64,000 bases of DNA from positions 3,646,501 through 3,710,500 of the forward strand of contig NZ_CP110128.1 of NCBI RefSeq assembly GCF_028471945.1, given 5' to 3'. The translations under genes and the position numbers were made by a program. The notes below the pieces were generated by a model that saw only the letters and a list, made by a program, of their open reading frames with translations, searched no databases and was not told the origin of the DNA. The DNA comes from Pseudomonas sp. WJP1. GTDB taxonomy: Bacteria; Pseudomonadota; Gammaproteobacteria; Pseudomonadales; Pseudomonadaceae. Position 1 is the first letter of the stretch. Each line of letters starts with the position of its first letter. Below, piece by piece: positions 18,208 through 45,355 of the stretch.

Positions 18208-19902
18208 TTAAAGCGTGGTCTTGAAGGTGAAGAACACCGCGCCGCGATCTTCCAGCAATGCCTGGCTGCCACTCGGGGTCAGGGCCGCGCCGGTAACGGG
18301 GTTGGTCGAGTAGTCACCGAAATAGTCCACGTACTTCAGATCGAAGCGGTAGCGGCTGTAGAGGTCGAGAGCCAGGCCCACCGCGTAGCTGCCGGCATCC
18401 TTGTTGCCGCCAGAGGCGACCGCCGAGTTGCCCGAAAGACCTTGGGAGTAACTGATTGGCATCGACAGGTCGCCCCCGGGGAACACCTGATACCAGTTCG
18501 GCGTGAAGTTGACGGCAATGCCATAGGCATCACGGGACACTTCGTCGATGTTGGTCGATACCGCCTTGTAGGCAGACGAGCCCTTGAACAGGTTCAGCGG
18601 GTCGTCGTTGACCGAGATCCAGCGGCTCCAGGTCAGCTCGGTGGACCAACTGGCGCTGTCGAACAGCGGGGTCGGGCTGACCGTGCCGATCGCGTTGAGC
18701 ACACCGTGCAGGGTGTCGCCACGGGCGCCAAGAATGTCGCCGTCGTCCGGCAGTTGTGCGACCGAGGTGACCCGCGCCGCCGAGCTCACCAGCGGCATGT
18801 TGTGGCGGTAGTCGAGGTCGGCACCGACGCTGATGCCGCCGATTTCCTTCGACAGGCTGATGCCGTACATGTCGATTTTGTCGGCGTAGTTGAGGTAATA
18901 CTGCGGGCGGGCATTGGCCAACAAAATCACCTGCGGCAGGGTGTCGGAGAACTGGCGCACGTAGAACCCCAGGGTGCCGTCCAGCCACTCCGGGCTCCAG
19001 CGCGTCATCACGCCCCAGTCCCCGGAATTGCGCGGTTCGATGTCATCGCCGTGAATGGCACGCAATGTGGGGCTTAGGATGAACGACTCGCCACCTTGCT
19101 GGTAGATATCGGCAAAACCCAGGTAGCTGCCGGCTTCAGGCACTCGCGATGGCCGCCATTCGAAGAAGTACTGCGCAGCGAAAGACCACTCGGGGTTGAC
19201 CTGCAATTGCGCGGAAATCTGGTTGCGCGGCAAATACAGCTCCTTGGCCTCGATTCCTGGCAGGGCCAGCGCCTTGCCCTGGTCCAGTGGTGCCTGGCCG
19301 TAGGAGATGCCATGGATGGCGCCGGCGCCCAGCAACGACTCACCCCAGTTCACCGTATGGCGGCCCAGGCGGGCCTTGAGCGGCATATCACCCAGCTCGT
19401 ACTCGCCGAAAACGAAGGCATCCATCCATTCGCCGGACGGGCCTTCGTAGTAGCGGTCGGTGTAGCGGCTAAGGCCTGTGGCCGGGCGACCACTGGAATT
19501 GAGGTGGTTGGAGGTGGCGACACTGTCGTTGTCCAGGTCACCGGCGTAGGCGGCGTCGTACCAGAGCGCGGCACTGACACGCGCGCCGTACTTGCCCTTG
19601 TAGATGAGGTCCGACTCGGTGAGGACGTCCAGGCGATTGTTGACCAGCCGGTGCTTGTCGAAGTTGCGGTCGCCGTCGTCATTGTTCGGGTTGGCCAGGA
19701 TCGCCTTATCCTGCCCTTCGGTACGCATCCCCAGGTTGTAACGCAGGGTGTTGTCCCAACGCAGCTGGATGTCTTCGTTGCCGGTGTCGATCTCGACCGC
19801 GCCGGCGCTGCCGCAGGCTATCGCGCACATGGCCACGACCGTTGCCTTCAATGCATGAGAACTGGTGGGATGACTTTGACTGGATTTGTTCTTGTTATTC
19901 AT
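18208..19902 (-). CDS. DUF1302 family outer-membrane-type protein
   Basis: A 564-residue exported protein with signal peptide (LKATVVAMCAIACGSAGAVE) and the DUF1302 pattern of alternating aromatic beta strands: RWDNTLRYNLGMR, GRHTVNWGESLLGAG and the terminal RGAVFFTFKTTL ending in a beta-signal-like strand. This suggests a beta-barrel, possibly a channel or adhesin for hydrophobic substrates. The start has an excellent Shine-Dalgarno (GGAGGAGG). First gene of the operon leading to YCF48, RND, two dehydrogenases and tetR. Two palindromes lie 25-70 bp upstream of the start codon. A second DUF1302 gene at 49234 is paired with DUF1329. Confidence 0.87.
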   Translation of the reverse strand: MNNKNKSSQSHPTSSHALKATVVAMCAIACGSAGAVEIDTGNEDIQLRWDNTLRYNLGMRTEGQDKAILANPNNDDGDRNFDKHRLVNNRLDVLTESDLIYKGKYGARVSAALWYDAAYAGDLDNDSVATSNHLNSSGRPATGLSRYTDRYYEGPSGEWMDAFVFGEYELGDMPLKARLGRHTVNWGESLLGAGAIHGISYGQAPLDQGKALALPGIEAKELYLPRNQISAQLQVNPEWSFAAQYFFEWRPSRVPEAGSYLGFADIYQQGGESFILSPTLRAIHGDDIEPRNSGDWGVMTRWSPEWLDGTLGFYVRQFSDTLPQVILLANARPQYYLNYADKIDMYGISLSKEIGGISVGADLDYRHNMPLVSSAARVTSVAQLPDDGDILGARGDTLHGVLNAIGTVSPTPLFDSASWSTELTWSRWISVNDDPLNLFKGSSAYKAVSTNIDEVSRDAYGIAVNFTPNWYQVFPGGDLSMPISYSQGLSGNSAVASGGNKDAGSYAVGLALDLYSRYRFDLKYVDYFGDYSTNPVTGAALTPSGSQALLEDRGAVFFTFKTTL

Positions 19903-19926
19903 CTGGGTGCCTCCTCCCCTGGGTTG

Positions 19927-19972
19927 AACCTGGACCTCCAGGTTCGCAAGCCACTCGATCAGTGATCGAGTG
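19927..19972. promoter_or_regulatory. Two palindromes upstream of the DUF1302-YCF48-RND operon (candidate operators)
   Basis: Seen directly: AACCTGGA-CC-TCCAGGTT (19927-19944) and the 21-bp perfect palindrome CACTCGATCA-G-TGATCGAGTG (19952-19972). They are 25 and 50 bp from the DUF1302 start codon. Their size and symmetry suit a dimeric repressor; the TetR gene that ends this operon is the nearest candidate (inference). Confidence 0.55.
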
Positions 19973-20143
19973 CTGCGCAGGGTGCCAGCGTCAGCCCGCC
20001 GTCCTCCCCCCCCTTTCTGAAAGGGGGTGTCCCCCTACCCCCCGGCCTGGCGTGCTGTTCACTTAAGCGTGGGGTTGTATCCAAGAACTGGATTGGGTGT
20101 ATATCCGTTGCTGCGGTAACGGCGACTTATGGTTTCGCTCTTA

Positions 20144-20398
20144 TGTATGGACTCGCCCCCACTGGCCACCTGTTTTTCAAACACTGCTACCCGGTTGCAT
20201 CTATGTATAAGGCCTGTTCGAGGAAGCCCTGTCTGCGGCTTCTGGCCGACATTGGTTGAGCTCGCGGTATGCCGATTACATGCAGGCCTCGAAGGCCGGT
20301 AAGAGCGCAGGCATCGATCCGCGACGGTCTGACCTGGGGTCAATGTTTTCTAGCAGGGGCTGAAGCGCCGTGGCGCCCCGGTGGCAGAACGCTTTTGT
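20144..20398 (-). ncRNA. Candidate bridge RNA region of the IS1111-type element
   Basis: IS110-family elements encode a structured bridge RNA in the longer non-coding end. Here the 255-bp 3' flank of the transposase is the only room for one. On the minus strand it contains CGCTCTTA (plus-strand TAAGAGCG, 20300-20307), identical to the eight bases of target immediately left of the insertion point, as expected for a target guide. The RNA boundaries and folding were not computed. Confidence 0.4.
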
Positions 20399-21502
20399 TC
20401 AGTGACTTGGCGCAGCTGGCCGGCCATGGGCCGGTTGGCTGCGGTAAGTCTGCTCATTTTGTAGCAGCACCCAAACGATTCGCAGGTTGCGGTTCGCCAA
20501 GCGTATCGCCGCTTCCTTGCGCCCCAGCCGGGCCTGCCACCGTTGCAAGCGACGATCGTCGGGCAGCTCCGAATCCGCGCGCAAATGCCTCAATACCGCG
20601 TGAGCACCTTGAACCATCAGGCTGCGCACATAGCTGTCGCCGCGTTTGCTTATCCGGCCCAGGCGAATTTTCTGCCCACTGCTTTTCTGCTCAGGCACCA
20701 TGCCGAAGTAGGCGGCGAACTGGCGTGCATTGGCGAAGCGCTCAGGGTCGGTCTGCTTGGCCAAAAGCGCAGTGGCGATGATCGGGCCGATCCCGCGCAC
20801 GGTCATCAGCCGTCGGGCCGTTTTGTCCTCGTTCGCGGCCTTCTCCAGGCGACCGGTCAGGACGTTGACCCGTTCGCCCAGTTGGCGCCACTCACCCAGC
20901 AGCTCGTCGATCAGTTCACGCAACATCTCCGGCAACGGTTGAGTGGCATCTTCCAGCACCCGAGGCAGGGTCTGGTTGATCGCCGCATCACCCTGTGCCA
21001 GGACAACGCCATGCTCCATCAGCAAACCGCGCATCTGGTTACTCATGGCTGTGCGCCGACGGACATAACCCTGGCGGGCCCGGTGCAAGGCCTGCATGGC
21101 CAGTGCGGTGGCGCTTTTGATGGGGACCGCGGCAATTTTGCTGTCGCGCCCGGCACGCAATATGGCCAGTGCATCATTTCGATCATTTTTGGCGCCGCTG
21201 CGGTGCTGGGCCACAAGCTGTGCCGGAAGAATCCGCGCCAGATTGCCCTGAGCCTGTAGTTGGCGCGCCCATGCTTGAGCGCCTGGACCTGTTTCCACGA
21301 GCACTACTATCCTTGGCGGCAGTTGGCGCAGAAAGGCATGAAAGGCTTCACGCGACTTGATGCGTTCTTCGTAAAGCACTTGGCCAAGAGCGTCTTCGCC
21401 TGCCACCTGAAAGACCTGCTTGGCCAAATCGACCGCCACTGTCGTGCAGGCCGACAGATCGCTGGAAGACAAAGACTGTTTAACCGTCGTATGCTTTTTC
21501 AT
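20399..21502 (-). CDS. IS110/IS1111-family transposase (DEDD)
   Basis: A 367-residue transposase. The N-terminal DEDD RuvC-like domain shows VAVDLAKQVF (Asp25), VLVETGPGA and the KNDRNDALA pair. The C-terminal Transposase_20 domain has VRGIGPIIATALLA, FAAYFGMVPEQKSSGQK and LGRISKRGDSYVRSLMVQGAHAVL, including the conserved Ser region. It is intact and of normal length. It lies inside the element defined by subterminal inverted repeats, reading away from its 5' end at 21581. Confidence 0.93.
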   Translation of the reverse strand: MKKHTTVKQSLSSSDLSACTTVAVDLAKQVFQVAGEDALGQVLYEERIKSREAFHAFLRQLPPRIVVLVETGPGAQAWARQLQAQGNLARILPAQLVAQHRSGAKNDRNDALAILRAGRDSKIAAVPIKSATALAMQALHRARQGYVRRRTAMSNQMRGLLMEHGVVLAQGDAAINQTLPRVLEDATQPLPEMLRELIDELLGEWRQLGERVNVLTGRLEKAANEDKTARRLMTVRGIGPIIATALLAKQTDPERFANARQFAAYFGMVPEQKSSGQKIRLGRISKRGDSYVRSLMVQGAHAVLRHLRADSELPDDRRLQRWQARLGRKEAAIRLANRNLRIVWVLLQNEQTYRSQPAHGRPAAPSH

Positions 21503-21858
21503 GGATTCGCCCTCGCTGTCGGTGGCTTCTTAGACTGCCCCCGTGGCGCATTGACGCCTCGGCGCGGGCGAGTCCATCCAATTACAGCGACTCCCTTTTT
21601 CAAACGCCAAAAAGGAAGCAAAAGGCTTTGCCCCACCACTCGGTGCCTCGCTAGGGCTCGGCATGCCCTCTCTCCGGCATTGCTCCGTGGGTCGCCGCGA
21701 TGGGCCATCCCTGGCCCAGCGCGGCTAAACCGGCGTCCTGCCGGTTTACCCACTGCGCAATGCCTGCGTTCGGCCATCGTGGTTAACGGGGCGCCCAGAT
21801 CAAAAACAAAAGCGAGGCGGCCTTATAGCCGACCTGACTTTTACGGCTGCACCTGATT

Positions 21859-21964
21859 CCCTGTGGGAGCCAGCCTGCTGGCGATGGACGTCAACGATAA
21901 CCCGCCCTGTCTGGATGAATGCGCCGCCTGGAAGTCCATCGCCAGCAGGCTGGCTCCCACAGGG
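21859..21964. repeat. REP pair inside composite repeat copy 1
   Basis: Perfect 31-bp inverted arms (21859-21889 and 21934-21964) with core GGGAGCCAGCCTGCTGGCGA. This is a REP subtype different from the GAGCGAGCCTGCTCGCGA type elsewhere in the window. Confidence 0.85.
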
Positions 21965-22148
21965 GAATGTGGACAGACCTGCAATCAGGTTGGCTATAAG
22001 GCCGCCTCGCTTTGGCTTTTGCTCTGCTTTGGCTTTTGATTTTCTTGCCTATATCGAGAGGCTTCGTTCCGGTTCTGCGCAGTGGCTAAACCGGCATGGA
22101 TGCCGGTTTAGCCACGCTGGGCCATGGATGGCCCAGCGCGGCGGGGTT

Positions 22149-22248
22149 TGTAGGAGCGAGCATGCTCGCGAAAAAACTGAGCGCACCGCGGGGTGCCAGG
22201 CTCCCCGCGTCATCGTTGACCTCCATCGCGAGCAGGCTCGCTCCTACA
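22149..22248. repeat. REP pair inside composite repeat copy 1
   Basis: TGTAGGAGCGAGCATGCTCG (from 22149) and the inverted CGAGCAGGCTCGCTCCTACA (ending at 22248) flank about 55 bp. One arm has a C-to-A change relative to the consensus. Confidence 0.82.
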
Positions 22249-22372
22249 GGCTCTTCCAAGTGACTCGCCGTAAGGGCGAAACCATAGGTGGCCGTTACCG
22301 CAGCAACGGATATACACCCAATGTAAATATGCACCCGCAGCCCCAACCTGACCCTATAGGATCACGTTCAGA

Positions 22373-23116
22373 TCAACGAGTGCCGCACTGGATATCCAGG
22401 GTCAACGCGTTGAGGTAGGCGTTTTCCACCACATGTCGCACCAGCGCGGCGAACTCCTCCGGCAGGCCCATGCGCCGGGGAAACAACAAGCCGTTGACGA
22501 TGGTCTCCGAGACTTTCGCCGGCATGCCCGCGGACATGCCGGACTCGAACAGCCCCGGCGCCAGGCTCACCACGCGGATCCCGTGTTCGGCCAGGTCGCG
22601 GGCGATCGGCAGGGTCATGCCAATGATCCCGGCCTTGCTCGCACTGTAGGCCGCTTGCCCCATCTGCCCCTCACGCGCAGCACCCGACGCCGTGTTGATG
22701 ATCACCCCGCGCTCGCCACTGTCCCCGGGCGTGTTCGTCGACATGGCCAGGGCGGCGTGCCGGATCATGTTGAAGGTACCGGTGAGGTTGACCCCCAGCA
22801 CCCGGTTCCACAGCTCGGTTGGAAACAACTGGCCCTTGGAGAGGGTCTTGCACGGCCCCAGTATCCCCGCGCAGTTCACCGCCACATGCACCGCGCCAAA
22901 GCGTTGCACCACCGCGTCGATAGCCGCCTTGACGCTGGCCTCGTCGGATACGTCGACCGCGATACCGACAATGCCTTCGAGCGCTGCATCAAGCCGTTGC
23001 TGATCCAGGTCGAACCCCACCACGCTGGCCCCGGCTGCCGCCAGTGCCTTGCAAGTGGCCAGGCCAAGCCCCGATGCCGCGCCCGTGACGACGGCTACTT
23101 TGTTATCCAGTTTCAT
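22373..23116 (-). CDS. HSD10-like short-chain dehydrogenase (3-hydroxyacyl-CoA dehydrogenase type)
   Basis: A 247-residue SDR. The ATG at 23116 is preceded by AAAGGAATCACG; a longer frame from 23224 has only a GTG and no support. Motifs: VVTGAASGLGLATCK (NAD site; Asp in VGFDLDQ favours NAD), NCAGI, INTASGAAREGQMGQ, YSASKAGIIGM (catalytic Tyr/Lys) and LAPGLFESGM. The last two and GLPEEFAALVRHVVENAYLN are close to mitochondrial HSD10 and bacterial 3-hydroxy-2-methylacyl-CoA dehydrogenases. It is divergent from the LAL regulator starting at 23331 (214 bp between starts) and is probably controlled by it. The gene's 3' end adjoins the composite repeat. Confidence 0.88.
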   Translation of the reverse strand: MKLDNKVAVVTGAASGLGLATCKALAAAGASVVGFDLDQQRLDAALEGIVGIAVDVSDEASVKAAIDAVVQRFGAVHVAVNCAGILGPCKTLSKGQLFPTELWNRVLGVNLTGTFNMIRHAALAMSTNTPGDSGERGVIINTASGAAREGQMGQAAYSASKAGIIGMTLPIARDLAEHGIRVVSLAPGLFESGMSAGMPAKVSETIVNGLLFPRRMGLPEEFAALVRHVVENAYLNALTLDIQCGTR

Positions 23117-44860: not shown

Positions 44861-45355
44861 GTACATATCCGTTGCTGCGGTAACGGCCACCTATGGTTCC
44901 GCTTTTACAGCGGGTCACTTTCGAAAAGCGCGAAAGTAACCAAAGCGCTCTTGCCCCACCACTCGGTGCCTCGCTAGGGCTCGGCATGCCCTCACTCCGA
45001 CATTGCTCCGTGGGTCGCCGCGATGGGCCATCCTTGGCCCAGCGCGGCTAAACCGGCGTCCTGCCGGTTTCCCCACTGCGCAATGCCTGCGTTCGGCCAT
45101 CGTGGTTAACGGGGCGCCCAAATCCAAAGCAAAGCGAGGCGGCCTTAAAGCCGACCTGATCGGGAGCCGTACTCGTTCACCCTGTAGGAGCCAGGCTTGC
45201 CGGCGAACCAGACGCTGCGGTGTGTCTGTTACTCCGCGTTATCGTTTTTCGCCGGCAAGTCGGATCGTCGCACCGCTGGCTCTACAGGCTCTTCCAGGTG
45301 ACTCGCCGTAAGAGCGAAACCCTAAGTCGCCGTTACCGCAGGAATGGATATGTAC
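44861..45355. repeat. Composite intergenic repeat with inverted ends, copy 2 (uninterrupted)
   Basis: Left end GTACATATCCGTTGCTGCGG and right end inverted (CCGCAGGAATGGATATGTAC), with about 55 bp of inverted similarity. The core at 44949-45160 is nearly identical to 21634-21842 and in the same orientation. A diverged REP pair (about 45180-45292) fills the right part. This copy shows what copy 1 looked like before IS insertion. Confidence 0.8.

Follow-up and report, generated by a model that had tools for sequence, protein, structure and literature searches.

A question raised by this locus is whether an eight-base match between an insertion sequence and the DNA beside it is an accident, or the mark of an RNA by which the element chooses where it inserts. 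The window (the whole stretch of 64,000 nucleotides that we analysed, from Pseudomonas sp. WJP1) contains such an element, and a sequence-only reading had proposed that its non-coding end encodes a bridge RNA with this octamer as the target guide. The match itself is confirmed: the element carries TAAGAGCG at 20300–20307, and CGCTCTTA lies at 20136–20143, directly left of the element's boundary at 20144 (Table 1). The window contains the octamer 4 times, against 0.96 expected; in the non-coding end, 0.0065 occurrences of this particular octamer would be expected on either strand. Some match of at least eight bases between the non-coding end and 12 nt of either flank, on either strand, arose in 195 of 3,000 shuffles. 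The warning that an 8-mer may match by chance was thus justified; a single match is modest evidence, and other copies and relatives have to decide. From their sequences we conclude that this is, very probably, an IS1111-type element of the IS110 family, the 3′ non-coding region of which encodes a bridge or seeker RNA with the octamer as its target guide.

Table 1 Features of the element, its predicted RNA and its target (positions in the window)
Feature	Position	Strand	Description
Insertion sequence	20144–21584 (1,441 bp)	transposase on −	Bounded by comparing 12 copies with unoccupied repeat ends
Left subterminal inverted repeat	21566–21577	−	ATGGACTCGCCC, preceded by the 7-nt extension TAATTGG (21578–21584)
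Transposase gene	20399–21502	−	ORF of 367 codons; IS110 family RNA-guided transposase
3′ non-coding region with predicted bridge/seeker RNA	20144–20398 (255 nt)	−	Downstream of the transposase gene; consensus fold, 18 relatives
Target-loop module	20263–20323	−	Helices 20319–20323/20263–20267 and 20310–20314/20269–20273; apical hairpin 20285–20297
Right target guide	20300–20307	−	RNA CGCUCUUA, pairs with top strand TA-AGAGCG
Candidate left target arm	20275–20280	−	RNA UGUAAU, the letters of the left junction TG-TAAT; 3′ arm of the guide's loop
Candidate donor segment	20251–20255	−	RNA CCAAU, complementary to left-end ATTGG; overlaps the helix with 20341–20347
Candidate donor segment	20202–20208	−	RNA AUACAUA, the letters of right end plus core (AT-ACA-TA)
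Right subterminal inverted repeat	20147–20158	−	GGGCGAGTCCAT, followed by the 3-nt extension ACA (20144–20146)
Right half of target	20136–20143	+	CGCTCTTA on the plus strand, TAAGAGCG in element orientation
Opposite end of the occupied repeat, itself unoccupied	22269–22282	+	CGTAAGGGCGAAAC, a type used by 0 of 12 copies

The open reading frame confirms that the 255 bp between its stop codon and the right end of the element are non-coding, as had been read from the letters. Its product matches the Pfam domains PF01548 (N-terminal DEDD, 52.5 bits) and PF02371 (Transposase_20, 91.9 bits), both over cut-off, and NF033542, the NCBI model of IS110 family RNA-guided transposases (295 bits against a cut-off of 140); the solved relatives found by transposase sequence are the IS621 and ISCro4 chains. 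The C-terminal IS110 motif G--P----SG is present as GMVPEQKSSG, with G267, P270, S275 and G276 invariant in 18 sequences, and D25, E70, D107 and D110, invariant in the sequence comparison, are the candidate DEDD catalytic residues. In transposase orientation the element starts with TAATTGG-ATGGACTCGCCC and finishes with GGGCGAGTCCAT-ACA. The subterminal inverted repeats are perfect over 12 bp, within the 7–17 bp of the IS1111 criterion, and the extensions outside them (7 nt left, 3 nt right) are those of the group, of which a 3-nt right extension is a feature. Non-coding DNA is likewise distributed as in IS1111 elements, with 255 nt downstream of the transposase gene versus 82 nt upstream of the ORF start. 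The element shows every IS1111 feature that is open to clear testing, and by sequence it belongs to the IS1111 group of the IS110 family. A 7-nt left extension is given for ISEc11, and 330–350 amino acids for IS1111 transposases in general (PMC11187229). The ORF here encodes 367; because residue 21 is where the family model starts, and the annotated length of some relatives is 343–352 amino acids, the true transposase start may lie later.

The genome (7.0 Mb, one contig) carries 12 copies of the element, and we read the flanks of all of them. Target sites of the other copies had been proposed as a check, and they agree with the guide: in element orientation the right flank matches the octamer exactly (TAAGAGCG) in 11 of the 12 copies and is one base off (TAAAAGCG) in the remaining copy, L009. 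All 12 left flanks terminate in CGCTG. In the window, the insertion has gone into one end of a repeat whose inverted arms are 52 bp long (20092–20143 and 22271–22322) and 94% complementary. Elsewhere the target is found uninterrupted as a repeat end, YGTAARRGCGRAAC, at 138 unoccupied sites: 114 are CGTAAGGGCG, 10 are TGTAAGAGCG and 11 are TGTAAAAGCG, and the remaining three comprise one CGTAAGAGCG, one CGTAAAGGCG and a third; the 35 GTAAGAGCG sites are all accounted for, so this third site is not one of them. None of the 12 copies lies in the commonest end type (the 114 sites), whose octamer has a G in place of one A. An exact match to the guide octamer is thus seen in 11 of 12 occupied versus 11 of 138 unoccupied ends (P = 5 × 10−10, one-sided Fisher test in which each copy counts as independent). 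The 12 copies show four left-arm types, which indicates at least about four insertion events. Specificity for the composite repeat's inverted end, as claimed by the sequence-only reading, holds for minor end subtypes (TGTAAGAGCG, once TGTAAAAGCG) and does not hold for repeat ends generally.

L009 is inserted in the variant CCGCTGTAAAAGCGGAAC and has the right flank TAAAAGCGGAAC, and CGCTGTAAAAGCGGAAC is present empty at 4 sites; these flank bases therefore belong to the target. The target sequences CGCTGTAAGAGCGAAAC and CGCCGTAAGGGCGAAAC are set apart by a T and an A. Outside the repeat end the genome has 12 GTAAGAGCG sites, none occupied, two of which lie in REP-like sequence (CTGTAAGAGCGAGCCTGCTCGC; L215 and L222). 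The guide DNA of all 12 copies also reads GTAAGAGCG (the octamer with the G before the core), and no copy has inserted there. Either nine bases are insufficient, the left arm and context adding specificity, or such insertions are lost or rare.

Relatives of the element provide natural variation in both guide and flank. Matches turned up in 66 of the 397 genomes of the genus that were searched, several of them at 72–82% identity; we added stretches from nine further genomes, and a contig scan gave 64 more loci. Plasmids yielded 47 records, every one below 60% identity. The analysed set comprises 49 insertions with 29 distinct non-coding regions and transposase identities of 64–100%, our 12 copies included. 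Left out were L029, L139 and L141, in which the right inverted repeat was not found, the frame-broken L030 (7 of 8 by inspection), loci matching short of residue 330, duplicates of one insertion and, for the guide analysis, the more distant relatives L033–L048 and L150 onward. In 46 of the 49 insertions, the octamer that the RNA carries at the aligned guide position has its exact reverse complement in the right-flank octamer; seven of eight bases agree in L009 and L142, and four of eight in the second copy in L053. When every alignment column was scanned, the guide column had 28 exact matches among 31 distinct pairs (mean of 7.8 of 8), and the next best column had none, with means of 4.2 for the reverse complement and 4.7 for the flank itself. 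When the flanks were shuffled among the 29 non-coding regions, none of 100,000 trials attained 28 exact pairs (the mean was 5.3 and the maximum 15). This shuffle keeps shared ancestry in; the eight guide types require at least seven changes, each mirrored in the flank.

Guide by guide, CGCTCTTA is accompanied by the flank TAAGAGCG 11 times and TAAAAGCG once, GGCTCCTA by TAGGAGCC 8 times and TAGGCCTG once, AGCTCCTA by TAGGAGCT 11 times, CGCTCCTA by TAGGAGCG 7 times and TAGGAGTG once, and AGCTGCTA by TAGCAGCT 6 times; CCACCCTA, CCAGCCTA and CCAACCTA occur once each, with TAGGGTGG, TAGGCTGG and TAGGTTGG, respectively. For a later set, from 398 genomes of the family with matches in 10, the guide position was fixed beforehand by conserved anchors. 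Seven of its 29 new loci were removed (those from this genome and from G098, the elements of which had already been used), leaving 22, of which L192 was without an anchor. Exact matches were found at 19 of the 21 anchored loci, or 18 of 20 given that L187 is the same insertion as L127. Two guide types had not been met before, CGGTCCTA with TAGGACCG (4 of 4) and CCATCCTA with TAGGATGG (2 of 4), and both misses belong to the latter guide (L191, 5 of 8; L212, 7 of 8). Across both sets, ten guide types have matching targets.

These counts bear directly on other explanations of the octamer. If the match were due to chance and the transposase itself recognised the repeat end or hairpin, one would expect a palindromic target and unused GTAAGAGCG sites outside it, as are found, and shuffling does produce some eight-base match. 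However, the flank varies in step with the RNA octamer over ten guide types, and the commonest repeat-end type is unused despite its equally palindromic layout, and we consider this explanation extremely improbable. The octamer could instead be part of the element's right end, the match being an internal inverted repeat that is carried through each transposition, which would fit its near constancy within each element. We give this almost no credence, as the identical bases run uninterrupted in unoccupied repeat ends, REP targets are uninterrupted in the genomes of relatives, and both the flank of L009 and the empty CGCTGTAAAAGCGGAAC sites place the variable bases outside the element. It is also very unlikely that the 12 copies were merely carried along with the composite repeat, in which case their common flank would say nothing about target choice. 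Element and repeat are both multicopy and several copies have similar left arms, but four left-arm types are occupied, two of these arms are also found at unoccupied sites with the identical target, and the relatives would be left unexplained; were it true, the within-genome test would have a smaller effective number of copies.

Folding is consistent with an RNA guide. In the RNAalifold consensus of 18 distinct non-coding regions the octamer is unpaired in an internal loop; the sequence-only reading had named a position in a closed stem as what would refute it. The helices that close this loop correspond to alignment columns 79–83/136–140, in which three pairs are changed on both sides, and 88–92/130–134, and the apical hairpin to columns 105–108/114–117. 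Over 30 named pairs, 98.9% of cells pair, and 7 pairs are changed on both sides, a number reached by 1 of 500 shuffles. Pairing falls to 27–44% when partners are slid by 1–3 columns, a comparison in which derivation of the fold from these same sequences in itself favours it over slid versions. For the closing helix, the alternative CAGUGUU pairs in 98.1% of cells versus 98.9% for CAAUGUC, and we make no choice between such near-equal alternatives. In single-sequence folding the consensus fold is not the minimum, and z-scores of 0.24 and −0.66 are no more stable than shuffles. An Rfam scan of 19900–22500 with E values up to 0.5 found no family over the guide region; the matches were to TwoAYGGAY, in the repeat, and weak ones elsewhere. 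The copies in this genome, the complementary sites of relatives and the position in an internal loop together support the octamer as the target guide of a bridge RNA.

The other parts of the predicted RNA are less evenly constrained. The C after the guide CGCUCUUA is constant in the 18-sequence alignment and could form a pair with the G that precedes the TA core; this G ends the left flank in 49 of 49 insertions, and nothing else is common to the left flanks. Nearly all detectable specificity lies in the right arm. The candidate left arm shows almost no covariation, and we rejected a long left guide, as the left octamer is matched exactly by no column (best mean of 3.9 of 8).

A donor loop is only partly supported by the sequence variation. 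The AUACAUA segment is identical to right end and core in 48 of 49 insertions; in the two relatives with ATATATA ends, the RNA reads AUAUAUA in L138, a matching change, and AUAUAAA in L137. The CCAAU segment is complementary to ATTGG at five bases in 35 of the 49, at four in 6 and at three in 8. Its three core-side bases match the left end throughout (49 of 49), also where it has become ATC, as it has in four insertions from three lineages; by inspection, G666 and G668 of the later set also have ATC with GAU, and L187 repeats L127. The outer two bases often mismatch (L049–L053, L129, L133, L123, L065, L066, L136, L137 and L138). The segment lies in helix 1, in which helix covariation is inseparable from donor pairing. 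The upstream AACAUUG strand forms this helix with it and resembles the element's left end. The ATT-to-ATC change of the left end is accompanied by a matching change of the RNA segment in L067/L068, L136 and L127, and the upstream strand changed in step in L068 and L136, with L127 retaining a wobble. A speculative and rather doubtful reading is that one RNA strand serves two partners, an internal mimic of the donor end masking the donor guide, which would stay hidden until released by the binding of donor DNA.

We propose that the RNA from the 3′ non-coding region would pair through its guide with the right half of the target and through the invariant C with the G before the core; the loop's 3′ arm would contribute no more than the short match UGUA to the other target strand. 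A complex of transposase and RNA would then swap strands at the TA core of the target (G-TA-AGAGCG) and of the joined element ends (ACA-TA-ATTGG), the latter in a circular intermediate with the junction GTCCATACATAATTGGATGG, to give ..G-TAATTGG...ACA-TAAGAGCG.. as the product. Guide, target, loop and element ends are supported by sequence and natural variation; RNA production, the circular intermediate, strand exchange and TA as the exact core we infer from published relatives.

The target belongs to a composite repeat that extends from 20092 to 22322 in the window, and many of its ends in the genome occur as inverted pairs. At least 33 such pairs, chosen by eye among the matches listed, span 414–796 bp (median 680), and the window copy has 714 bp between its ends once the element is subtracted. 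It holds two TwoAYGGAY RNA matches, one above (22086–22146, +) and one below (21689–21751, −) the gathering score. Two more repeat ends in the window, TGTAAAAGCGGAAC (44896–44909, −) and CGTAAGAGCGAAAC (45307–45320, +), are inverted and 411 bp apart; the second matches the guide octamer exactly and is unoccupied.

Repeat classes were counted in ten genomes. TGTAGCAGCTGGC occurs 85 times in G129 and is absent from the other nine, and all 6 examined insertions of the G129 element (guide AGCTGCTA) are in the rare, guide-matching TAGCAGCT class, the commoner classes there being TGTAGGAGCTGSC (783) and TGTAGGAGCSNGC (883). Genomes whose elements carry the guide AGCTCCTA have 1,010 (G230), 78 (G098) and 348 (G274) copies of TGTAGGAGCTGSC, and apart from G129 the counts are 0–4 in five genomes and 58 in the window genome; in G274, TGTAGGAGCTGSC is not the commonest class, as TGTAGGAGCSNGC reaches 907. 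Guides thus go with the host repeats on offer, as spread requires, in what is a correlation only. Within the clade, guides vary mostly among REP-like targets, and many relatives insert in TGTAGGAGC-type repeats. The window lineage is one guide base off some REP-targeting relatives (CGCUCCUA versus CGCUCUUA), and its insertions go into a single subtype of a composite repeat that is longer.

The description of the bridge RNA as otherwise undescribed does not hold for the RNA class, as both IS1111 seekRNAs and bridge RNAs have been in the literature since 2024 (PMC11187229, PMC11208160); on this element or its target we found nothing in the titles and abstract openings of open-licence PMC papers. 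The closest systems are the IS1111 seekRNA elements ISEc11, ISPa11, ISKpn4 and ISPst6 (Siddiquee et al. 2024, PMC11187229), which share the DEDD transposase, subterminal inverted repeats, 3′ non-coding region and target matches in the RNA, with the top-strand match 5′. The window element differs from them in its target and its very short bottom-strand match, and its RNA and movement are predicted. The same source reports that ISPa11 also targets a Pseudomonas REP, describes natural reprogramming for ISEc11 and ISXne4, and finds a short RNA sufficient for ISEc11, leaving the role of the long RNA open. The IS621 bridge RNA (Durrant et al. 2024, PMC11208160; structures in PMC11208158) serves the same protein family and has an internal loop with two arms that match the target strands around a core dinucleotide; in the window element, by contrast, the long non-coding end is 3′ rather than 5′, the arm order is reversed and the donor loop is a candidate. 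Relatives of the window element resemble the REP-targeting insertion sequences of Pseudomonas (ISPa11, ISPpu9, ISPpu10 and ISPsy8; Tobes and Pareja 2006, PMC1525189), many lying in TGTAGGAGC-type repeats, whereas the window lineage uses the longer composite repeat; the RNAs of ISPpu9 are treated in PMC8450116.

The RNA-guide mechanism is already known, and what is added here is the element, with strong sequence evidence for its RNA guide, its target and a natural retargeting series. Ten natural guide types on a similar scaffold show which guide bases vary and how strict the natural match is, and the series is consistent with RNA-guided elements shifting between host repeat classes by very few guide changes. 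The end variants in the clade make the donor-guide question of IS1111 elements testable.

Two minor observations concern individual copies. Genome G255 has two nearby copies, and behind the right end of the second (L053:3591–3677) 73 bp of the element's own tail are repeated; this duplicated tail opens with TAGGCCTG, where the target TAGGAGCC is expected, and is possibly an off-target product or the result of slippage at TAGG. Among the 12 copies of the window genome, 1 of 252 sites varies in the non-coding region versus 28 of 1,104 in the gene (P = 0.03), a difference that we set aside as evidence because the changes are linked. L009, L010, L011 and L012 (minus-strand copy) have in common a large number of linked changes that lie in the first two thirds of the gene, and the non-coding end is identical in all 12 copies except at one site near the stop codon; recombination between element copies is likely.
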